From Thiemannella venezuelensis (GTDB lineage: Bacteria > Actinomycetota > Actinomycetes > Streptosporangiales > Streptosporangiaceae): DNA of 64,000 bases. The notes beneath the pieces are model-generated. The model ran no database searches, was not told where the DNA came from, and worked only from the letters and a program-made list of their open reading frames with translations. The translations under genes and the position numbers were made by a program. The DNA lies in NCBI RefSeq assembly GCF_014203605.1, contig NZ_JACHJJ010000031.1, positions 1 through 64,000 on the forward strand. The letters are read 5' to 3'. Positions 10,664-34,345 of the stretch are shown piece after piece; the stretch's first letter is position 1; every line of letters starts with the position of its first letter.

Positions 10664-13111
10664 ATGCAGCCAGACGCCTCTCCACGCGGGCGCATCACGG
10701 GCTCCCGCCGGGGACGGGGCTCCCTCCGGTCCCGCCTCTGGCTCTGCTTCCTCCTGCTCGGCCTCGCGGTGAGCGCCGCCGGGCTGCTCCTGCCGGGCGA
10801 CGCCGGAATGATCACCAGGGTCGCCGTCCAGGTCGCCGCGGTGATCGGAATGGCCGCTGCGGTCGGCGTGCGGCGGCCGGCCGCCGCCGCGGCGTGGTGG
10901 CTGCTGACCGCGGGCGTGGCGGCGTGGGTCGCCGCCGACCTGCTCTGGACCGGCTGGTACTTCTCGGAGGACGGCGGCCGGATCCCCGCCTGGGTCGACA
11001 TGGCGTACCTGGCGGCGTATCCGCCGCTGCTGACCGGACTGAACAGGCTGCCGGGCAACTCGATCCGCTCCAGGAACGTCGGCGTGATGCTGGACGCCAT
11101 GGTCATCCTGCTGGGCACGGTCTTCGTGTACTGGACGTTCACCTTCAACCCCTACAACCCCTACGGTGACTTCCGGGCGCTGACCGGCCGCGAGCTGCTG
11201 ATGGCCTCGACCTACCCGATCGCCGACCTGGCCGTGCAGTTCATGGTCCTCCGGCTCTGGTTCACCCACGGCACCCGCAACCCGTCCTACGCCATGCTCA
11301 GCCTGGGTCTCGCCGGGATGTTCTTCGGGGACGTGGCGTACGCCCTGATGCTCCAGCGCGGGGAGAGCTGGGAGTACGGGCTCCTCGGCAACGCCGGCTG
11401 GCTGGCCTGGTTCGTCCTGGCCGGGGCCGCGGCGCTCCACCCGTCCGCGGGCGGCACGAGGAAGGTCCCCTCCGGCGCCCGCCTCACCACCGCGCGCAGC
11501 CTCACCTTCCTGGTGGCGGCCTGCGCGGGGCCGTTCTCCCTCATGCTCAACTTCGAGGCGGGCACGGCGGTGCGGCCGACCGACTTCCTGGTGCCGCTGG
11601 CCATCTTCGCCGTCCTGATGGCGTTCCTGGTCATCCGCCTGATCACCAACACCAACGTGGCGCAGCGCCGCGCCGAGCTGCTCGACGAGCAGGCCGCCGA
11701 GCTCTCCCGCGCCCTGGACGAGCAGCAGGCCCTGCAGCAGCTGCTCAGCCACCGGGCGATGCACGACCACCTGACCGGCCTGGCCAACCGGGCGCTCTTC
11801 CACGACCGGCTGGAGCAGGCCACAGCCCGGCGCGCGCCCGAGGCCAGGCACGCCCTGCTCATGCTCGACCTCGACGGCTTCAAGCACGTCAACGACACCT
11901 ACGGCCACCCGGCCGGCGACCAGCTCCTCGTCCAGGCCGGCCACCGGCTGGGCGAGATCCTGCGCGAGGCCGACACGCTGGCCCGGCTCGGCGGTGACGA
12001 GTTCGCCATCCTGCTGGAGGACGTGACCGCCGAGGAGGCGGGGCACGTGGCCGGGCGGGTCGTCGACGTGATGGGCAGGCCCTTCGCCGTGGGCGAGCAC
12101 GCCTTCCACGTCACCGCCAGCGTGGGCCTGTACATGATCGCCGAGGCGGCCGAGGCGCAGGACGTCGTGCGCGACGCCGACCTCGCCCTGTACGCGGCCA
12201 AGGCCGCGGGAAAGAACCAGATCAGCGTCTTCCACCCGGGGCTGCGCGTCGAGCAGCTCGGCCAGGCCCGCCTCACCGAGGGCCTGCGCCGCGCGCTGGA
12301 ACGGGAGGAGTTCGTGGTGAACTACCAGCCCGTGGTGGACCTGGCGACCGGGAAGGTCCAGGCCGTGGAGGCGCTGCTGCGCTGGCACTCCCCCGACGGG
12401 CTCGTCTCGCCGGACGAGTTCATCCCCGCCGCCGAGGAGACCGGCCTGGTCGTGCCGATCGGCGCCCACGTGCTCCGCCGCGCCTGCCTCGACGCGGTCG
12501 GCTGGTACGAGCGGTACGGCATCGCCGTCAACGTCAACGTCTCCGGCCGCCAGCTCCGCCGCAAGGAGTTCGTCTCCGCGGTGCTGGCGGCGCTCCGGGA
12601 GAGCGGACTGCCCGGGGAGGCGCTCATCCTGGAGATCACCGAGACCGCGCTGCTGGCCACCGGCCGGGAGGAGACCGCCCGCGTCATCGGCTACCTGTCC
12701 GAGCTCCGCCGGCACGGCGTGCGGATCGCCATCGACGACTTCGGGACCGGGTACTCCTCCCTGGCCTACCTGCAGCACCTGCCGGTGGACGTGGTCAAGA
12801 TCGACGGAGCCTTCACCACCCTCGAACGCGGGACCGACTCCGCCTCCCGCCAGCGGCACGCCTTCACCAAGGCGATCCTCAGCCTCTGCGAGAGCCTGGA
12901 CCTGCCGGCCATCGCGGAGAAGGTGGAGACCAGCGAGCAGGAGGAGTTCCTGCGGGACATGCACTGCCCGCTGGGCCAGGGATACCTCTTCAGCCGGCCG
13001 GTGCCCGCCGCCGAGCTGGGCCGACTGCTGGCCGAGGGGGAGATCGAGGGCGCCTCCGAGATCCGGCCCGCACGCGGGGAGCCGGGCGGGCACGAGCGCC
13101 TGGCCGGCTGA
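10664..13111 (+). CDS. Membrane-bound diguanylate cyclase/phosphodiesterase (GGDEF-EAL)
   Basis: 815 aa. ATG 10664 has AGGAG upstream. The N-terminal 330 residues contain about eight to ten membrane helices (a MASE-like sensor) and a short coiled coil (EQAAELSRALDEQQAL). The GGDEF domain is intact (RLGGDEFAILLED, near 442) with an RxxD inhibitory site (READ) five residues before it. The EAL domain has EALLRW near 567, NVNVSGRQL, ILEITETALL and IDDFGTGYSSL; the usual AEGVET reads AEKVET. It could both make and degrade c-di-GMP. The PilZ gene at 41.6 kb is a possible effector. Confidence 0.92.
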   Translation: MQPDASPRGRITGSRRGRGSLRSRLWLCFLLLGLAVSAAGLLLPGDAGMITRVAVQVAAVIGMAAAVGVRRPAAAAAWWLLTAGVAAWVAADLLWTGWYFSEDGGRIPAWVDMAYLAAYPPLLTGLNRLPGNSIRSRNVGVMLDAMVILLGTVFVYWTFTFNPYNPYGDFRALTGRELLMASTYPIADLAVQFMVLRLWFTHGTRNPSYAMLSLGLAGMFFGDVAYALMLQRGESWEYGLLGNAGWLAWFVLAGAAALHPSAGGTRKVPSGARLTTARSLTFLVAACAGPFSLMLNFEAGTAVRPTDFLVPLAIFAVLMAFLVIRLITNTNVAQRRAELLDEQAAELSRALDEQQALQQLLSHRAMHDHLTGLANRALFHDRLEQATARRAPEARHALLMLDLDGFKHVNDTYGHPAGDQLLVQAGHRLGEILREADTLARLGGDEFAILLEDVTAEEAGHVAGRVVDVMGRPFAVGEHAFHVTASVGLYMIAEAAEAQDVVRDADLALYAAKAAGKNQISVFHPGLRVEQLGQARLTEGLRRALEREEFVVNYQPVVDLATGKVQAVEALLRWHSPDGLVSPDEFIPAAEETGLVVPIGAHVLRRACLDAVGWYERYGIAVNVNVSGRQLRRKEFVSAVLAALRESGLPGEALILEITETALLATGREETARVIGYLSELRRHGVRIAIDDFGTGYSSLAYLQHLPVDVVKIDGAFTTLERGTDSASRQRHAFTKAILSLCESLDLPAIAEKVETSEQEEFLRDMHCPLGQGYLFSRPVPAAELGRLLAEGEIEGASEIRPARGEPGGHERLAG

Positions 13112-26756: not shown

Positions 26757-28370
26757 TCAGCGGCGCCCGCCGAGCAGGGAGGCGGGCGAGACGAAGGTGT
26801 AGCCCAGGCCCTTGATCCCGTCGATGGTCTCCTCCAGCCACTTGGTGCCCAGGTAGGGGTGGTAGAAGAAGCTGGCCATGCCGTCGCGGACGACGAGGTT
26901 GGCCTTGGCGGCCTTGATCAGAGTGTCCGGGAGGACCACCGGGTGGTTGTTGAACGCCTCGGGTTCGATGTTGCCGATGTTCTCCGGCAGGACCGTGGAG
27001 CCGTAGACGTCGGTGACGGTGTAGGGGAAGAACTGCCCGGCCATGTGGTCGTACTGCGGTGCCGTACCGGACAGGGTCCCGGCGAAGTAGAGGCTGCGCT
27101 CGTAGCGGGCCTTGAACCCCAGGTTCTTGACCGCCTTGTAGTCCGCGGCCGAGGCGGCGTAGTGCGGGAACTCGAAGATCGTCGGAACCGGCAGGCCCGC
27201 GAGGCGGAACTCCGCGGCCGAGGCCAGCATCCGGGCCGCGGCCCAGGCGGTGGAGTCCTTGGCGACGGGGCCGTCGTAGATGACGGAGTCGTTGGCGTCG
27301 ACGTGGGCGGTGTAGAACTCGAAGTCGTCGCCGCTGGTGCCGTTGTAGGGGTTGGGCGCGTCGGTGTACTGGTGGGTGTACCCGTGCATGATCATCGTGC
27401 CGCCGTTGGCCAGCATGTACTTGATGGCCTTGACCACCTGGGGCCGCTGGCGGAGCCTGACGGTCGTGCCGGGGGCCTTGTGCACGGGGAAGACCCCGAA
27501 GGAGAAGGGCACCTTCTTGGCGACCAGCAGCCTGGCGACCGCCATGAGCTCGGCGGGCTCGGAGTTGGGGCCGATGTCCTCCAGGCGGACCATGGCCCGG
27601 TGGCGTTCGGCGGTCTGCGGTGCCAGCGCGTCGAACAGCAGGTCGGCGAAGACCAGGTAGCGGTCGGAGGCGGTGGTGTAGGCGAAGGGGATCTCGCCGA
27701 TGTAGGTCAGCTTGCCCGAGCGGATCGCCCACGGGATCTGCGTGCCGTTCTCGCGGACGGCGCCGGCCAGCACCTTGGCCTTGGTCTCGTCGACGGTGGC
27801 GTAGTCCATCACCCCGGAGGCGTTGACGGGGTCGCGCGAGAGCTCCTGGCCCTTGTAGACCACGCCCTCGACGGTGGTGTAGTCGAACTGCGACCACATC
27901 CAGCCGTAGTCGGCGGTGAAGGTGGGAATCGAGGAGGTGAGCTGCCAGATGTTGTGGTTCATCCAGATGACCGGGCGGTCGGCGGTGCGCACGTCGTCCA
28001 GGAAGGCCTTGGGCAGCGGCTCGTCGTAGGTGGAGCCGACGTAGACGACCGCGGTGAAGCCCTTCATCCTCCCGGCGGTGTAGGCCGAGACCGGCATCGT
28101 GGTGAACGTGCCGAAGTGACCGGTGAGGTTGGCGGTCTGGATCGCGTACAGCTCGCCGAGCCAGCCCCACTGGCCGGTCGTGTCGTACAGCACCAGGGTG
28201 GAGCGGCCGGTTCCGGCCAGGCCGCCGGTGAAGACCTTCTGGGCGGTGGCGTTGGCCTGGGCGGATGCGGCGGCGGCCTGCGGCACGAGGCCGGTGGTGA
28301 GCAGCAGCACGGCCGACAGCAACGCCGTCAGCGCCGGCAGGACGGCCCTGCGCCAGCGGGAAACGGGCAT
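26757..28370 (-). CDS. Secreted DUF2334 protein (polysaccharide deacetylase-like)
   Basis: 537 aa from ATG 28370. A signal peptide (about 8-35) ends near AAAASAQ. The body is a DUF2334 domain, a relative of polysaccharide deacetylases, with HGYTHQYTDAPNPYNG as the likely metal-site region, MVRLEDIGP and a C-terminal SFFYHPYLG. The start has no strong ribosome site. A 173-nt conserved leader (28441-28613) ends 71 nt upstream. It is about 75-80% similar to the downstream paralogue at 28680, including a 190-bp identical stretch. Role: probable modification of a secreted polysaccharide. Confidence 0.85.
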   Translation of the reverse strand: MPVSRWRRAVLPALTALLSAVLLLTTGLVPQAAAASAQANATAQKVFTGGLAGTGRSTLVLYDTTGQWGWLGELYAIQTANLTGHFGTFTTMPVSAYTAGRMKGFTAVVYVGSTYDEPLPKAFLDDVRTADRPVIWMNHNIWQLTSSIPTFTADYGWMWSQFDYTTVEGVVYKGQELSRDPVNASGVMDYATVDETKAKVLAGAVRENGTQIPWAIRSGKLTYIGEIPFAYTTASDRYLVFADLLFDALAPQTAERHRAMVRLEDIGPNSEPAELMAVARLLVAKKVPFSFGVFPVHKAPGTTVRLRQRPQVVKAIKYMLANGGTMIMHGYTHQYTDAPNPYNGTSGDDFEFYTAHVDANDSVIYDGPVAKDSTAWAAARMLASAAEFRLAGLPVPTIFEFPHYAASAADYKAVKNLGFKARYERSLYFAGTLSGTAPQYDHMAGQFFPYTVTDVYGSTVLPENIGNIEPEAFNNHPVVLPDTLIKAAKANLVVRDGMASFFYHPYLGTKWLEETIDGIKGLGYTFVSPASLLGGRR

Positions 28371-28440
28371 AGGAGAGAGACCCCCACGACGAAAGCGAGA
28401 ACGGCGCCGTTGGGAGCGCCGCATGACAGGGTGTGGGTTC

Positions 28441-28613
28441 GGTCTCGCCATTGGCTCCCCGAGGCGGCTAGGCGGCCGAATTCCTACGTGCGCGAGCAGG
28501 TTGCCGCATCGCGTCGTTGAGGCCGTCTCGGATCATCGCGTACCCGACGAACTACCGCGGTATATGCCCCTACCTGCGGGTTCGCCTTCAGGTTAACCTT
28601 GGGTCACCAAAAC
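28441..28613 (-). ncRNA. Conserved structured leader RNA, copy A (candidate riboswitch)
   Basis: Transcribed as the 5' leader of the DUF2334 gene at 26757. Predicted stems: P1 (28547-28585) capped by loop UAGGGGCAUAUA; P2, CCGAGACGGC (28531-28522) with GCCGCCUCGG (28468-28459); P3 (28513-28491) enclosed by P2. Copy B at 32119 keeps the loop, the GGGUACGC junction and the GUAGGAAUUCGGCCGCCUA segment, while P1 and P3 stems differ with pairing retained. I know of no matching riboswitch consensus. Confidence 0.65.
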
Positions 28614-28679
28614 AGGCAAACCCCCCATAAAGTCTTTACCGAGCGTGAGCCGGGGACGGGGCCGCGCCCGGGGAGGACG

Positions 28680-30311
28680 TCAGAGCGAGCCGGGGGCCAC
28701 GAAGGTGTAGCCCAGGCCCCTGATCCCGTCGATGGTCTCCACCAGCCGCTCCACCCCCAGGTAGGGGTGGTAGAAGAAGCTGGCCATGCCGTCGCGGACG
28801 ACGAGGTTGGCCTCGGCCGCCTTCACCAGGTCGGCGGAGAGCACCGACGGGTGGTTGTTGTAGCCCTTCGGGATCAGATTGCCGATGTTCTCCGGCAGGA
28901 CCGTGGAGCCGTAGACGTCGGTGACGGTGTAGGGGAAGAACTGCCCGGCCATGTGGTCGTACCGCGGTGCCGTACCGGACAGGGTCCCGGCGAAGTAGAG
29001 GCTGCGCTCGTAGCGTGTGCCGAAAAGCACCGTGGCCGCCTTGTAGTCCTCCACCGAGGCGGCGTAGTGCGGGAACTCGAAGATCGTCGGAACCGGTAGG
29101 CCCGCCGCCCTGAACTCCGCGGCCGAGGCGTCCATCCGGCCGCGCGCCCAGGCGGCGGAGTCCCCGGCGACGGGGCCGTCGTAGACGACGTAGTCCTTCT
29201 TGTCCACGTGGGCGGTGTAGAACTCGAAGTCGTCGCCGCTGGCGCCGTTGTAGGGGTTGGGCGCGTCGGTGTACTGGTGGGTGTACCCGTGCATGATCAT
29301 CGTGCCGCCGTTGGCCAGCATGTACCTGAGCGCCTCGACGACCTCGGGCCGTTCCCGCAACCTGATCTCGACGCCCTTCTCGGGCTCCTTGTGAAGCGGG
29401 TAGACGCCGAAGGAGTAGGGGATCTTCCGGCGGGCCAGCTCAGTGGCGATCTTCATCAGCTCGGCGGGGTCGGCGGCGGGGCCGATGTCCTCCAGGCGGA
29501 CCATGGCCCGGTGGCGTTCGGCGGTCTGCGGTGCCAGCGCGTCGAACAGCAGGTCGGCGAAGACCAGGTAGCGGTCGGAGGCGGTGGTGTGGGCGAAGGG
29601 GATCTCGCCGATGTAGGTCAGCTCGCCCGAGCGGATCGCCCACGGGATCTGCGTGCCGTTCTCGCGGACGGCGCCGGCCAGCACCTCGGCCTTGGTCCCG
29701 TCGACGGCGGTGTAGCCCATCAGGCCCGCCTCGTTGCGGACGTCCCGGCTGAGGGTGCGGCCCTTGTAGACCACCTTCTCGAAGGTGCCGCGGTCCAGCT
29801 CGGACGGCAGCCAGCCGTACCTGGCGGTGAAGTCCGGGGTGGTGGAGGCGAGCTGCCAGATGTTGTGGTTCATCCAGATGACCGGGCGGTCGGCGGTGCG
29901 CACGTCGTCCAGGAAGGCCTTGGGCAGCGGCTCGTCGTAGGTGGAGCCGACGTAGACGACCGCGGTGAAGCCCTTCATCCTCCCGGCGGTGTAGGCCGAG
30001 ACCGGCATCGTGGTGAACGTGCCGAAGTGACCGGTGAGGTTCGCGGTCTGGATCGCGTACAGCTCGCCCGCCTGCGGCCACTGGCCGGTCGTGTCGTACA
30101 GGACCAGGGCGGAGCGGCCGGTTCCGGCCAGGCCACCGGTGAAGACAGCGGGCTCGGACACAGCGCGCCCGGACACGGTGGGCGTGGCGGACGCCGCCGG
30201 AGACTGCGACTGTCCGAGGCCGGTGACGAGAAGCACGCCGGCGGTCAGGAACGCGGACGCCGCCAGGGCCGCCGTACGGCGGCGCCGCGGAGAGCGGGCG
30301 GAGGTGGTCAT
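28680..30311 (-). CDS. Secreted DUF2334 protein, paralogue 2
   Basis: 543 aa from ATG 30311 (AAGGAAG upstream); the long upstream frame overlaps the glycosyltransferase and is not coding. Signal peptide at about 12-35. The domain matches the 26757 paralogue throughout (HGYTHQYTDAPNPYNG, MVRLEDIGP, SFFYHPYLG). It lies 65 nt downstream of the GT2 gene as last gene of the small membrane protein-GT2-DUF2334 operon. It probably deacetylates or trims the polymer made by that synthase, by analogy with the PgaB-PgaC pairing. Confidence 0.85.
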   Translation of the reverse strand: MTTSARSPRRRRTAALAASAFLTAGVLLVTGLGQSQSPAASATPTVSGRAVSEPAVFTGGLAGTGRSALVLYDTTGQWPQAGELYAIQTANLTGHFGTFTTMPVSAYTAGRMKGFTAVVYVGSTYDEPLPKAFLDDVRTADRPVIWMNHNIWQLASTTPDFTARYGWLPSELDRGTFEKVVYKGRTLSRDVRNEAGLMGYTAVDGTKAEVLAGAVRENGTQIPWAIRSGELTYIGEIPFAHTTASDRYLVFADLLFDALAPQTAERHRAMVRLEDIGPAADPAELMKIATELARRKIPYSFGVYPLHKEPEKGVEIRLRERPEVVEALRYMLANGGTMIMHGYTHQYTDAPNPYNGASGDDFEFYTAHVDKKDYVVYDGPVAGDSAAWARGRMDASAAEFRAAGLPVPTIFEFPHYAASVEDYKAATVLFGTRYERSLYFAGTLSGTAPRYDHMAGQFFPYTVTDVYGSTVLPENIGNLIPKGYNNHPSVLSADLVKAAEANLVVRDGMASFFYHPYLGVERLVETIDGIRGLGYTFVAPGSL

Positions 30312-30376
30312 TGTTCTTCCTTGTCCGAGACCCGTCCCGGAGCGGACGGTGGATGGCCGTGGGGAGACGGGGCCGG

Positions 30377-31630
30377 TCAGGTGCGGGCGGTCTTGAGCCA
30401 GGTCTGGCGGCCGGAGAGGGCGCGGCCGACCGCCCACCAGCCCGCGGCGAACCACTGGTAGCCGTAGAGCACGAACAGGTGTCCCAGCAGCAGCGAGCGC
30501 AGCAGTCCCAGCTCGGAGTCGCGCCGCCAGTAGACGTAGCCGTAGACCAGGGCGATGCCGAAGGACAGGCCGTACCAGAGGGCGAACATGGCCGGTGAGA
30601 CCACGCTGTGGCCCGCCTGCAGCGAGGCCGCGACCAGCGCCAGGCCCGACGCGGCGAAGGCGAGCGGCAGCACCGAGGTCAGCAGCAGGAACCAGGGGCT
30701 CATCAGGTGGTAGACCAGGTCGGGGGCGGCGGCGGCCGGGGCGCGGCGGATGACGAGCGGCAGCAGCCTGCCGGCCTGCAGGTGCCCCTGGAACCAGCGC
30801 GAGCGCTGCCGCACCAGCCGCTTGGGCGAGAGCACGGCCTGCTGGTGCACGGCGGTGGTGTGGCAGAACCGGTTGCGCCAGCCGGCGGCGAGCAGCCGCA
30901 CGCCCAGGTCGAGGTCCTCGGTCAGGCAGTCGCTCCACGGGTCGGCGCCGAGGCCGGCCAGGGCGTCCAGGCGCATGAACTGGCCGTTGCCGCCCAGGCC
31001 GACGCTGCCCAGGTGGCGGCGGCCGTTCTGGAAGACGTCGGTGTAGACCACGAACTCCATGTCCTGCATCCGCGCCAGCAGGCCGGCGTGCCGGTTGTAC
31101 ATGCGCACGCCGATCTGGACGCCGCCGGTGGCGGGGTCGGCGAAGTACGGCGTGACCTCGTCCAGGGCGTCGGCGTCCAGGCGGCCGTCGGCGTCGAGCA
31201 CGCAGACGACGACCCGGGCGGGGTCGCGCCCGGCCAGCAGCCCGGAGCCGGTCAGGTGTGCCAGGCCCGCGTTGAGCGCCGCGCCCTTGCCGCGCCGGGC
31301 GTCGGGCAGGCTGCGCTGCAGCAGCCAGATCCGGTCGTCCTCGGCGGCGGCGGCGCGGACGATGTCGGCGGTGGCGTCGGAGGAGGCGTCGTCGACGACC
31401 AGGACCGCGAGCTCGCCGGGCAGGCTCCGCAGCCGCTGCAGGCTGGCGGCGAGCACCTTCTCCTCGTCCAGGCAGGCCATGAGGAAGACGTAGAAGGGCG
31501 CGGGCTCGGCCGGTGCGGCGGGGCGGCGCACGCCCCGCGAGAGCAGGAACATCAGCGCGGTGTAGCCGAGGCCGAGCACGATGACGGCGGAGCTCAGCCA
31601 GAGCAGGGCGGTCGTCACCGGGGTGGTCAT
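30377..31630 (-). CDS. Processive family 2 glycosyltransferase
   Basis: 417 aa; ATG 31630 overlaps the stop of the small membrane protein. An N-terminal membrane helix (about 8-30) precedes the GT-A domain with MACLDEEK, VDDASSD, DADGRLD, TEDLDLGVRL and Q-x-x-R-W (QRSRW). Three C-terminal helices follow (about 305-400). This is the synthase architecture of PgaC/IcaA-type enzymes. Flanked by a DUF2334 protein, it is the core of an exopolysaccharide locus. It is distinct in sequence from the GT2 at 3.8 kb. Confidence 0.9.
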   Translation of the reverse strand: MTTPVTTALLWLSSAVIVLGLGYTALMFLLSRGVRRPAAPAEPAPFYVFLMACLDEEKVLAASLQRLRSLPGELAVLVVDDASSDATADIVRAAAAEDDRIWLLQRSLPDARRGKGAALNAGLAHLTGSGLLAGRDPARVVVCVLDADGRLDADALDEVTPYFADPATGGVQIGVRMYNRHAGLLARMQDMEFVVYTDVFQNGRRHLGSVGLGGNGQFMRLDALAGLGADPWSDCLTEDLDLGVRLLAAGWRNRFCHTTAVHQQAVLSPKRLVRQRSRWFQGHLQAGRLLPLVIRRAPAAAAPDLVYHLMSPWFLLLTSVLPLAFAASGLALVAASLQAGHSVVSPAMFALWYGLSFGIALVYGYVYWRRDSELGLLRSLLLGHLFVLYGYQWFAAGWWAVGRALSGRQTWLKTART

Positions 31631-31977
31631 CGCGTCACCTGCGCGGTGAGGTCGTTCCCGCCGCCGGAGGAGGCGAGGACGCCCCGGGAGGCGGGGCCGA
31701 GGCCGGCGCGCCGGCCTCGGGGAGCGGACCGCCCGCTGACCGCGTCGGCGCCGCGGAGCACCGCCCCGGCGGCCAGCAGGACGGTCATGGCCAGCAGGAA
31801 GAGCCCGAACCCTGCGCCGGTGGCCATGAGCAGGACGCGGGCCGCGTCCACGGCGGTGGCGGTCAGGTCCGCGGCGGCCGTGCCGGAGGCGGACAGCTCG
31901 GAGGCGGACGGCAGGACGGCGGAGGCGCCCACGCTCATGCCGGTCCCGGTGAGCGCGAGGGCGCTGTTGGCGTACAT
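31627..31977 (-). CDS. Small membrane protein of the exopolysaccharide operon
   Basis: 116 aa from ATG 31977 (GGGGGTG upstream). The frame is open to GTG 32100, but no ribosome site supports that start. The sequence has a Ser/Ala/Thr-rich N-terminal half, one membrane helix (about residues 52-76; LLMATGAGFGLFLLAMTVLLAAGAV) and a basic C-terminus. I do not recognise the family. Stop and start overlap with the GT2 gene indicates coupled translation; an accessory subunit like PgaD is a reasonable guess by position only. Confidence 0.65.
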   Translation of the reverse strand: MYANSALALTGTGMSVGASAVLPSASELSASGTAAADLTATAVDAARVLLMATGAGFGLFLLAMTVLLAAGAVLRGADAVSGRSAPRGRRAGLGPASRGVLASSGGGNDLTAQVTR

Positions 31978-31978
31978 C

Positions 31979-32053
31979 TCAGGCACCCCCGTGGACGGGG
32001 AGGGCGAGAGCGGTGGAGCGGCCGGAAGACGGCAGCGCGGGGCGAGCGGGCAT
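31979..32053 (-). CDS. 24-codon upstream ORF in the exopolysaccharide leader
   Basis: ATG 32053 has GAGGG 4 nt upstream and ends in TGA one nucleotide before the ATG at 31977. The start region (GTCTC then ATGCCC) aligns with that of the DUF2334 gene at 28370, so it looks like a decayed copy of that gene's start. It may still be translated and couple ribosomes onto the next gene. Confidence 0.4.
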   Translation of the reverse strand: MPARPALPSSGRSTALALPVHGGA

Positions 32054-32118
32054 GAGACCCTCACGACGAGACGGACCCGGACATCCGGAAGGGATGTCAC
32101 CTGACAGGTGACGGGTGC

Positions 32119-32297
32119 GGTCTCGCCATTCGCTCCCCGAGTCGGCTAGGCGGCCGAATTCCTACGTGCGTGAGCGCGTCGCCGCGCCACGCCGTTGAGG
32201 CCGTCTCGGATCGTTGCGTACCCGTGAAGGCCGCAGGCATATGCCCCTACCTGCGGCTTCGTCATCACGTTAACCCTGGGTCACGAAAATGGCAAAC
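32119..32297 (-). ncRNA. Conserved structured leader RNA, copy B (candidate riboswitch)
   Basis: 5' leader of the small membrane protein-GT2-DUF2334 operon. P1 (32226-32260) has a 7-bp inner stem CCGCAGG/CCUGCGG and loop UAGGGGCAUAUG. P2 pairs CCGAGACGGC (32209-32200) with GCCGACUCGG (32146-32137). P3 (32192-32168) has GCGUG/CACGC plus GCGC/GCGC. Two further perfect 7-bp hairpins lie between the element and the upstream ORF (about 32060-32115) and could serve as an expression platform. Confidence 0.65.
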
Positions 32298-32346
32298 ACA
32301 GTCCCAAAAATATTACGTAGCGTGATTGTCACTTAGTGTTACGAAC

Positions 32347-33015
32347 GTGGATCTCCAGCGGATACGGCGGGTGCCCGCCCTCGCCCTCCTGATCTGTACG
32401 GCCCTCGCCGTCCTCGCGGGCTCCTGCGACGGCGGCGGGGCCGGCGGTGAACGCTGGGCCGAGGGCAGCGTCCACGGCGACTGGCGCGTGATATTCGACG
32501 GGGGCGGGTTCACCGGCCGCGCCCCCGGCGGGCAGATCCGGATCGACACCCCCGCCCCGGCCTCCGCCGCCGAGACCCACGCCGGCCTCATCGTCTCCAT
32601 CGGCAGCACCGGCGAGCCCGACCTCCGGCTGCGCCTGCGCACCCTGCGCCAGACCCGCGCCGTCCCCAACGTCTGGGAGGTCGCCTGGGTGGTGTGGCAC
32701 TACACCGGCCCGCAGAACTTCTACTACCTGCTGCTCAAGCCCAACGGCTGGGAGCTCGGCAAGGCCGACCCCGCCTTCCGCGGCGCCCAGCGCTTCCTGG
32801 CCACCGGCCCGGGCCCGTTCCCGGTGGGGCGCTGGTACGAGGTGCGGGTACGGCAGAGCGGTCCGCGCATGACCGCCTGGGTCGACGGCCGGCGGACGGT
32901 CGACTACACCGACACCGAGCAGCCCTACCGGCGGGGCGCGGTCGGCCTGTACGCCGAGGACGCCGTCGCCGACTTCACCGCCGTCACCCTCGGCGGCCAC
33001 GCCCTGCGCGACTGA
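32347..33015 (+). CDS. Putative secreted/lipoprotein with LamG/DUF1080-like fold
   Basis: 222 aa from GTG 32347; TTG 32326 is seven codons upstream. Neither start has a clear ribosome site. A signal peptide ends at LAGSC, which could be a lipobox though the -3 residue is atypical. The mature part is beta-rich with WEVAWVVWHYTGPQNFYYLLLKPNGWELGK and RWYEVRVRQSG, a pattern seen in DUF1080/GH16-like jelly-roll domains that bind or cleave sugars. It is divergent from the GT2 operon and upstream of wecB. Confidence 0.65.
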   Translation: MDLQRIRRVPALALLICTALAVLAGSCDGGGAGGERWAEGSVHGDWRVIFDGGGFTGRAPGGQIRIDTPAPASAAETHAGLIVSIGSTGEPDLRLRLRTLRQTRAVPNVWEVAWVVWHYTGPQNFYYLLLKPNGWELGKADPAFRGAQRFLATGPGPFPVGRWYEVRVRQSGPRMTAWVDGRRTVDYTDTEQPYRRGAVGLYAEDAVADFTAVTLGGHALRD

Positions 33016-33175: not shown

Positions 33176-34345
33176 ATGCCCTCAATCCACCTTCCCCGGC
33201 GACGGAACCGCATCCGCGCCGCCCTCGTCCTCGGGACCCGGCCGGAGGCGATCAAACTCGCCCCGGTCCTGCGGGCGATGAGCGACTCCCCGCTCTTCGA
33301 GCCCATGGTCGTCTCGACCGGGCAGCACCGGGAGATGCTCGACCAGATGCTGAGCCGGCTGCACATGGACAGCAGCCGCGACCTCGCCGTCATGCGCGAC
33401 CGCCAGCAGCTCTCCGGGCTGACCGCCCGCCTGATCAGCGGCCTGGGCGAGGCCGTACGGGCCGACGAGCCCGACGTGGTGATCGTCCAGGGCGACACGA
33501 CGACGGCGATGACCGGGGCGCTGGCCGCGTTCTACGAGGGCGTGCCCGTCGCGCACGTGGAGGCGGGCCTGCGCACCGGCGTCATCGGCAACCCCTTCCC
33601 CGAGGAGCTCAACCGCCGCCTGGTGGCGCCCATGGTGCGCTGGCACTTCGCCCCCACCGAGGGCTCGGCCGCCAACCTGCTGGCCGAGGGCGTCGACCCC
33701 GGCCAGATCGACGTCACCGGCAACACGGTGATCGACAACCTGCTCTGGGTGCTGGAGCGCGGCGAGGGCCGCTCGGCGTTCACCGCCTCCGGCCTGCGGC
33801 GGGTGCTGGTGACCCTGCACCGCCGGGAGAACCAGGGCGAGACCATGCACGGCATCGCCACGGCCCTGGCCGACCTGGCCGGCCGGCCCGACGTGGAGAT
33901 CGTGCTGCCGCTGCACAAGAGTCCCGCCGTGCGGGACGCCCTGCTGCCGGTCCTGGGCGACCACCCCCGGATCCGGCTCGTCGAACCGCTGGACTACTTC
34001 GACTTCGCCGCCACGCTCGCCGCCTGCGACCTCGTGCTGACCGACTCGGGCGGCGTCCAGGAGGAGGCGCCCACGCTGGGCAAGCCCGTCCTGGTGCTGC
34101 GCACCACCACCGAGCGCCCCGAGGCCGTACAGGCCGGGGTCGCGCTCCTGGTGGGCACCGAGCCGGGCGAGGTCGCCGCCGCCGCCCACCGCCTGCTCGA
34201 CGACCGCGCCGCCTACGGGCGGATGGCGGCCGCGGTCAACCCCTTCGGGGACGGGCGGGCGGCCGAGCGCATCGTGCACAGGCTCGCCCTCGACCTGGCC
34301 GGCCGCACCACCGGGCACGGCGAGGGCGACCTGGCCGTCGCCTGA
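33176..34345 (+). CDS. wecB: UDP-N-acetylglucosamine 2-epimerase (non-hydrolysing)
   Basis: 389 aa from ATG 33176 (AGGAG 9 nt upstream). Family motifs: LGTRPEAIKLAPV at the N-terminus, VQGDTTTAM, HVEAGLRTG, FPEELNRRL, VTLHRRENQG and TDSGGVQEEAPTLGKPVLVLR with the catalytic acidic and His residues in place. It interconverts UDP-GlcNAc and UDP-ManNAc, supplying a precursor for surface polysaccharide. Its placement beside the GT2/DUF2334 genes suggests the polymer contains ManNAc or a derivative. Confidence 0.95.
   Translation: MPSIHLPRRRNRIRAALVLGTRPEAIKLAPVLRAMSDSPLFEPMVVSTGQHREMLDQMLSRLHMDSSRDLAVMRDRQQLSGLTARLISGLGEAVRADEPDVVIVQGDTTTAMTGALAAFYEGVPVAHVEAGLRTGVIGNPFPEELNRRLVAPMVRWHFAPTEGSAANLLAEGVDPGQIDVTGNTVIDNLLWVLERGEGRSAFTASGLRRVLVTLHRRENQGETMHGIATALADLAGRPDVEIVLPLHKSPAVRDALLPVLGDHPRIRLVEPLDYFDFAATLAACDLVLTDSGGVQEEAPTLGKPVLVLRTTTERPEAVQAGVALLVGTEPGEVAAAAHRLLDDRAAYGRMAAAVNPFGDGRAAERIVHRLALDLAGRTTGHGEGDLAVA

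Follow-up and report, generated by a model that had tools for sequence, protein, structure and literature searches.

What decides when the likely exopolysaccharide genes in the middle of a 64,000-nucleotide stretch of the Thiemannella venezuelensis genome (contig NZ_JACHJJ010000031.1, positions 1 to 64,000; this whole stretch is referred to as the window) are made? Two homologous leaders on the minus strand, A (about 28350-28660) and B (about 32050-32340), precede these genes and share 83% mean column identity over their aligned stretch. Copy A is a c-di-GMP-II-GAG riboswitch (Rfam RF03169; c-di-GMP, cyclic dimeric guanosine monophosphate), and copy B is, judging from the alignment, its paralogue. 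The promoters of both carry boxes matching that of BldD, a regulator that itself responds to c-di-GMP. We assign a probability of about 0.7 to the reading that both leaders are c-di-GMP-II-GAG riboswitches under BldD-box promoters, and that the locus would thereby be subject to two-layer control by c-di-GMP. The aptamer class was already known; the new elements are the BldD boxes beside the aptamer and its link to the bldD gene.

Two leaders of a known aptamer family

A cmscan search of the whole window returned a single match over the gathering score, that of copy A (28429..28552, minus strand) to RF03169, with 44.1 bits (E value 2.4e-05; gathering score 40) and the whole model (1-86) matched. 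Copy B (32111..32225, minus strand; ends set by its P1 stem, ACGGGU/ACCCGU) scored 32.4 bits, below the gathering score, with RF03169 still its best match in the clan. The Rfam match of copy B (32108-32190) has its 5' half misplaced, probably because the apical insert is long. Among the orthologues of B, those of Planobispora siamensis (53.0 bits), Spirillospora albida (49.9 bits) and Planomonospora sp. ID82291 (48.4 bits) all score higher, and that of Planomonospora sp. ID67723, likewise with a long insert, reaches 29.8 bits, under the cut-off. The canonical c-di-GMP-II model, RF01786, gave no match at the leaders even at an E value of 10, its best score in the genome being 18 bits and elsewhere; RF03169 is by name a related variant and belongs to clan CL00127, of which we take RF01786 to be a member as well. 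An earlier note on this DNA, made from its letters, had placed two homologous leaders here, and they are indeed present and well aligned. It knew of no matching class and regarded a match to a known Rfam family as refuting that view; such a match is what copy A gives, with copy B best matched by the same family. Its suggestion of a ligand-binding RNA, with a cyclic dinucleotide as an attractive ligand, agrees with the RF03169 family, although the ligand itself is something that we infer.

The leaders share with RF03169 the P1 stem, the long-range core stem, an apical variable insert and the CGGNCGCC/GGCGAGACCG pseudoknot strands; alignment to the model places the pseudoknot and pocket strand GGNGAGACCG. 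They differ from it in three additions: a hairpin at the 5' end whose loop is almost invariant, promoter BldD boxes, and a start codon complementary to the loop. We compared 11 orthologous leaders, drawn from five genomes plus Spirillospora albida. The strand GGCGAGACCG is present in all 11, nine of which had been found by a pattern containing it and two of which, the window copies, had not. The long-range stem P2 (CCGAG-A-CGGC with GCCG-N-CUCGG), drawn in the earlier note, was recovered by RNAalifold, with one pair altered on both sides in five of the 11 leaders (A-U to G-C) and one altered on a single side in four. In that run, which included the promoter, 3 of 51 predicted pairs showed a change on both sides, one of the three lying in promoter columns; the stem of the 5' hairpin, whose arms are aligned out of register in A relative to B, was not predicted. 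The third stem, P3, varies in length and corresponds to the variable insert of the aptamer. Some stem pairs thus change with pairing kept while loops stay, as expected from the paired leader RNAs that the note proposed. The copies are longer than it drew them: upstream they share a promoter, and downstream the closing strand of the aptamer, a conserved stretch for ribosome binding and the start codon.

The family is not confined to the window. Matches to RF03169 over the cut-off occur in 5 of the 341 genomes of the window's family (its own included), and at an E value of 0.01 the class yields 65 genomes with a match out of 394, 56 of them over the cut-off; in the phylum, 114 of 396 genomes have one at an E value of 2e-6. 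A scan of named genomes with the aptamer pattern returned 22 stretches, in three Planomonospora genomes, Planobispora siamensis, Spirillospora albida and metagenome-assembled genomes (mostly Frankiaceae). Four weak RF03169 matches in the genome and family (L003, L010, L011, L012) look like coding DNA by eye and were not counted as leaders, and a fifth (L004) was likewise left out. In one genome, two aptamers of the family stand in tandem on the same strand, 26 nucleotides apart (L153 and L042; G355:C66:71242-71364 and 71391-71509).

BldD boxes above the aptamers

Passages of PMC4151990 and PMC7374567 give the BldD box as TNAC-N5-GTNA, with the longer form nTnACnC(A/T)GnGTnAn, and describe c-di-GMP as strongly promoting BldD binding. 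Leader B carries a full match to the longer form, TGACCCAGGGTTA (32271..32283, minus strand), the right half of which overlaps the putative -10 element. A second core box, a match to TNACNNNNNGTNA (32313..32325, minus strand), lies 42 bp upstream of the first, and a third (32329..32341, minus strand) sits between leader B and the divergent plus-strand open reading frame 32326-33015, at the listed start of that frame. In leader A, the box TGACCCAAGGTTA (28594..28606, minus strand) is one base off the long consensus and is again accompanied by a second core box 42 bp upstream (28636..28648, minus strand). By eye, the promoter of leader B would consist of a -35 element TTGCCA (32290..32295, minus strand) and, after a 17-nucleotide spacer, a -10 element TAACGT (32267..32272, minus strand); the putative elements of leader A are TTGCCT (28614..28619, minus strand) and TAACCT (28590..28595, minus strand). 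This promoter stretch also appears conserved, reading TTGCNN, 17-18 nucleotides and TANNNT in the alignment of the 11 leaders, with the last element in all of them and the BldD box in the spacer.

The five core boxes found in the 64 kb window are an ordinary count (3.6 expected); their placement is what stands out, all five lying just upstream of the two leaders. The longer consensus has 18 sites in the 8.18 Mb genome, against 4 for the pattern read backwards, and one of the 18 is that of leader B. Among orthologous leaders the first box is kept in 11 of 11, at 58-62 nucleotides from the GATCC of the aptamer, whereas the second, read by eye, is found in all five B leaders of Planomonospora and Planobispora but in just two of five A leaders. 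The genome also encodes one BldD equivalog (NF050110, 305.5 bits; cut-off 250), with the c-di-GMP signature RXD-X8-RXXD in the form RGD-X8-RQED. The promoters thus share the core box with those of the Streptomyces BldD regulon, and leader B shares its longer form; they differ in that the transcript here also begins with a c-di-GMP-II-type aptamer. Among titles and opening lines of abstracts, we found no publication pairing BldD with a riboswitch; the original description of the GAG variant may name bldD.

The combination of box and aptamer recurs well beyond the window's relatives. Outside the window's own family, the class yielded 110 aptamers over the cut-off, of which one with less than 100 nucleotides upstream was dropped; seven more over the cut-off, one of them L187, are not in the count. 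A core box lies in the last 150 nucleotides upstream in 28 of the 109 class leaders, compared with 0-3 for five permuted palindromes and with 4 of 109 at 400-550 nucleotides upstream. Removal of similar sequences left 27 boxed leaders of 107 (200 shuffles gave a mean of 2.0 and at most 7), and exclusion of bldD leaders left 23 of 100; when the first 15 nucleotides of the aptamer were included, 31 of 109 were boxed, in 23 of 47 genomes (permuted palindromes 1-3). In a scan of 2112 gapped palindromes, the BldD core ranked first (P = 1.6e-22; next 7e-9). Allowing one mismatch raised the count to 73 of 109, against 29-37 for three permuted motifs, which is less clean, and the exact motif was therefore used.

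The closest tie is to bldD itself. The BldD domain is present in 43 of the 55 class genomes over the cut-off (that of the window excluded), and in nine genomes (G350, G354, G355, G359, G377, G394, G399, G411, G414) an RF03169 aptamer immediately precedes bldD on the same strand, with no gene in between in any of the nine on inspection. A BldD box stands at or near the 5' edge of the aptamer in all nine (eight by script; L187 by eye), and three of the aptamer-led proteins, when checked, were BldD equivalogs. None of the five genomes of the window's family has the aptamer on bldD, aptamer and gene being on different contigs. If the aptamer responds to c-di-GMP, the c-di-GMP master regulator would itself stand under a riboswitch for c-di-GMP.

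Pfam scanning of 88 of the 106 open reading frames behind class aptamers identified SpaA (8), BldD (7), DUF11 (7), subtilases (4) and glycosyltransferase family 2 (3). Many of the frames have no Pfam match; those recognised encode mostly surface-type proteins, plus the c-di-GMP regulator. This bears out the expectation that further copies would precede polysaccharide-type genes, in that aptamers do stand ahead of glycosyltransferase and surface-protein genes. Five class aptamers (L150, L154, L162, and also L040 and L148) precede small exported proteins with the motif AYW(T/S)(T/S)TG, which resembles SipW-type signal peptides; these could possibly be matrix-fibre proteins. Three of the five (L150, L154, L162) share nearly identical ribosome-site hairpins.

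The phylum outside the class served as a control, with 90 loci of which two were dropped for short upstream sequence. In genomes without a BldD-like domain, one of 58 leaders was boxed (two with the longer window; Fisher test against 28 of 109, p = 2.6e-5). BldD-like proteins outside the class score at most 92 bits to the domain, compared with 106-134 bits in the class. In eight genomes outside the class (G705, G766, G875, G904, G961, G994, G1026, G1040), genes for BldD-like C-terminal domains are found no more than about 2 kb from RF03169 aptamers, with few boxes; it is possible that these reflect an older partnership with another DNA site.

Proposed two-layer control and its alternatives

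With BldD boxes in the spacer between -35 and -10, two inputs would control the locus. At the DNA layer, BldD would be expected, from the box, to block the promoter at high c-di-GMP; passages of PMC4151990 and PMC7374567 describe Streptomyces BldD as binding its box strongly just with c-di-GMP, and a passage of PMC4151990 gives the dissociation constant of its C-terminal domain as 2.5 µM. At the RNA layer, the aptamer, by its family a cyclic-dinucleotide binder and most likely a c-di-GMP binder, would, when occupied by ligand, keep its 3' strand within P1 and the pseudoknot. Without ligand, the same strand would pair with the ribosome-binding region, and ligand would free translation. If both inputs are c-di-GMP, the output would be a band: translation would fail at very low levels and transcription at high ones. 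The order of these thresholds, with the aptamer permitting translation already above the lower one, is assumed. A single second messenger would then reach one gene by two routes, a repressor protein and an RNA aptamer, in a band-pass response. Planomonospora, Planobispora and Spirillospora make motile spores, and a matrix switch in this group would fit a decision between swimming and sticking. Passages of PMC9481103 on tandem and logic-gate riboswitches describe a comparable arrangement of two signal readers on one gene; here, in contrast, an aptamer would share the gene with a repressor that acts at the DNA, both perhaps reading one molecule.

The ON direction of the RNA layer is suggested by pairing energies. 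In class leaders, the strand that comes after GAGACC or a near variant of it is predicted to pair more stably with the start region of its own leader than with those of others (-13.9 versus -11.5 kcal/mol, standard deviation 0.38), an advantage reached in none of 5000 permutations; such preferential pairing is the build expected of an ON switch. In the A leaders, GACC and CCCAC of the aptamer 3' strand can pair with GUGGG and GGUC (by eye, with energies computed), that is, with the conserved ribosome-binding stretch, GUGGGGGUC in leader A (28379..28387, minus strand). The ribosome sites of the window's leaders carry GGUCUC, the complement of GAGACC. We rejected the idea that ribosome sites generally contain it, as this hexamer ranked 281 of 4096 in 96 leaders of the class; a pocket-strand version of the platform is thus not general. 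No terminator-like site was found in 28300-32500.

Several observations weigh against the two-layer reading. A consensus promoter scan called no promoter, the elements given above being those read by eye, and 78 of the 109 class leaders lack a perfect box. Outside the class, leaders in genomes with a BldD-like domain are not enriched in boxes (3 of 30 in both windows), their share being not significantly below that of the class (Fisher p = 0.084), which conflicts with a simple rule that the box is present wherever the domain is, and for which reason we make no claim about BldD there; the control set is itself divergent, as just 34 of its 90 aptamers have a GAGACC-like strand by pattern. The pairing test covered 55 of 106 class leaders, chosen by spacing and ribosome-site score. 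When the aptamer was held in the folding calculations, the mean unpaired probability of the ribosome site rose modestly, from 0.27 to 0.39 (up in ten of the 11 leaders, down in one), and the AUG became less open in nine of the 11. Finally, the GAG variant was reportedly set apart in its original description since its pocket differs from that of c-di-GMP-II, and may have another ligand.

The reduced opening of the AUG also speaks for an OFF switch, in which ligand would hide the ribosome site or the start and in which BldD and the RNA would both repress at high c-di-GMP; so does the ability of the 5' hairpin loop to pair with AUGCCC. We regard this as a somewhat unlikely alternative, given that the aptamer 3' strand pairs class-wide better with its own ribosome-site region than with those of others, and that the ribosome site opens in ten of the 11 window-type leaders.

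Whichever its direction, the aptamer might read a molecule other than that read by BldD, such as 3',3'-cyclic GMP-AMP (cGAMP) or another dinucleotide, in which case the locus would integrate two signals. RF03169 is a separate Rfam variant family, canonical RF01786 is unmatched at these leaders, and altered ligand specificity has reportedly been proposed for such variants in their original description; to our knowledge, the ligand of the GAG variant is unsettled. However, in each of the 25 GGDEF domains that the search returned from the genome, the ninth residue after the substrate-site Asn is Asp. Passages of PMC6456294 give Ser at that position for the Hypr cGAMP synthases (Asn339/Ser348). 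The 25 domains therefore show no Hypr signature, in a search that covered GGDEF synthases. The nine genomes with an aptamer on bldD likewise tie the aptamer to c-di-GMP biology, and its position there and beneath BldD boxes points to c-di-GMP as the ligand of the GAG variant. Taken with the GGDEF residues, this makes c-di-GMP the most likely ligand, and a two-signal locus distinctly unlikely.

The remaining alternatives concern whether BldD and a working RNA are involved at all. As BldD is assigned here by motif identity, the upstream palindromes could in principle serve another regulator; we consider this very improbable, since the motif is the published BldD box and the top palindrome of an unbiased scan, and since each of the nine bldD genes led by an aptamer carries it and few leaders from genomes without the domain do. 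That the leaders are conserved through recent duplication without a working switch, as the closeness of A and B and the relatedness of the genera might suggest, can hardly hold against the compensatory stem changes in the 11 leaders and an aptamer family over its cut-off in 56 class genomes. We thus retain two-layer control by BldD and the aptamer as the preferred reading.

The hairpin loop and the genes of the locus

A further element may act on the start codon. The 5' hairpin of each leader, the P1 of the earlier note, spans 28546..28586 in A and 32226..32260 in B (both minus strand), with the loop AGGGGCAUAU at 28562-28571 and 32239-32248, respectively. Its folding energies in the window copies (-21.0 and -22.3 kcal/mol) are well below the means of 300 mononucleotide shuffles (-13.3 and -13.7 kcal/mol). 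The hairpin stands firmly in both window copies and in the B orthologues, which are as strong. In the four remaining A leaders it is far weaker, with an advantage over shuffles of just 0.2 to 2.6 kcal/mol. The loop AGGGGCAUAU is unchanged in nine of the 11 leaders, reads AAGGGCAUAU in one and is lost in Spirillospora albida. In the RNAalifold run, unprompted, GGGCAU was paired with the start-codon sequence AUGCCC in ten of the 11 leaders. For the loops of A and B, no partner between the hairpin and 30 nucleotides into the open reading frame is better than the start, and of 20000 mononucleotide-shuffled loops just 0.2% match both observed energies. Spirillospora albida has neither the loop nor AUGCCC (its start reads AUGCCU), and codon 2 is CCC in two of the 106 open reading frames behind class aptamers. 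As the loop hardly varies, its pairing with the start is not proven by covariation; the pattern is suggestive only, and the pairing could be a third gate in Planomonospora and Planobispora.

These elements can be combined into a tentative proposal, which we place somewhat short of even odds: a recurrent Actinomycete circuit of BldD box and GAG ON riboswitch, by which matrix genes and bldD would be made only within a band of c-di-GMP, with the hairpin loop kissing the start codon as the third gate in Planomonospora and Planobispora. Were this circuit real, the GAG variant class would gain its ligand.

The genes that these leaders would control follow one another on the minus strand. Behind leader B come a 24-codon open reading frame, a small membrane protein, then the genes of a family-2 glycosyltransferase and of a DUF2334 protein; leader A follows and precedes another DUF2334 gene. 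The short frame (31979..32053, minus strand; 24 amino acids) is opened by AUGCCC downstream of the conserved ribosome-binding stretch GUGAGGGUC (32056..32064, minus strand), and its stop lies 1 nucleotide before the next ATG. It is open in six of six B leaders, with 24-44 codons and a stop touching or overlapping the next ATG, and the start codon beside aptamer B may therefore act through translational coupling. The small membrane protein (MYANSALALTG..., 31627..31977, minus strand) has no Pfam or NCBIfam match. The glycosyltransferase (30377..31630, minus strand) is best matched by NF053846 with 304 bits, below its cut-off of 520, and scores 63.6 bits against the PgaC/IcaA model (cut-off 422). 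Because it falls below the cut-offs of these named models, an exopolysaccharide is the likely rather than the established product of the locus. The operon ends with a DUF2334 protein with a signal-peptide-like N-terminus (28680..30311, minus strand), and a second such protein (26757..28370, minus strand), also with a signal-peptide-like N-terminus, begins behind leader A with an AUGCCC complementary to the hairpin loop. Comparison with solved structures gave just a weak family-2 match for the glycosyltransferase (E value 0.00012) and chance matches alone for the DUF2334 protein.

Diverging from leader B on the plus strand are a 3-keto-disaccharide-hydrolase-like protein (32326-33015) and a WecB-type UDP-N-acetylglucosamine 2-epimerase (33176-34345). 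Elsewhere in the window, a GGDEF domain (11756-12220, plus strand) lies inside an open frame of 894 codons.

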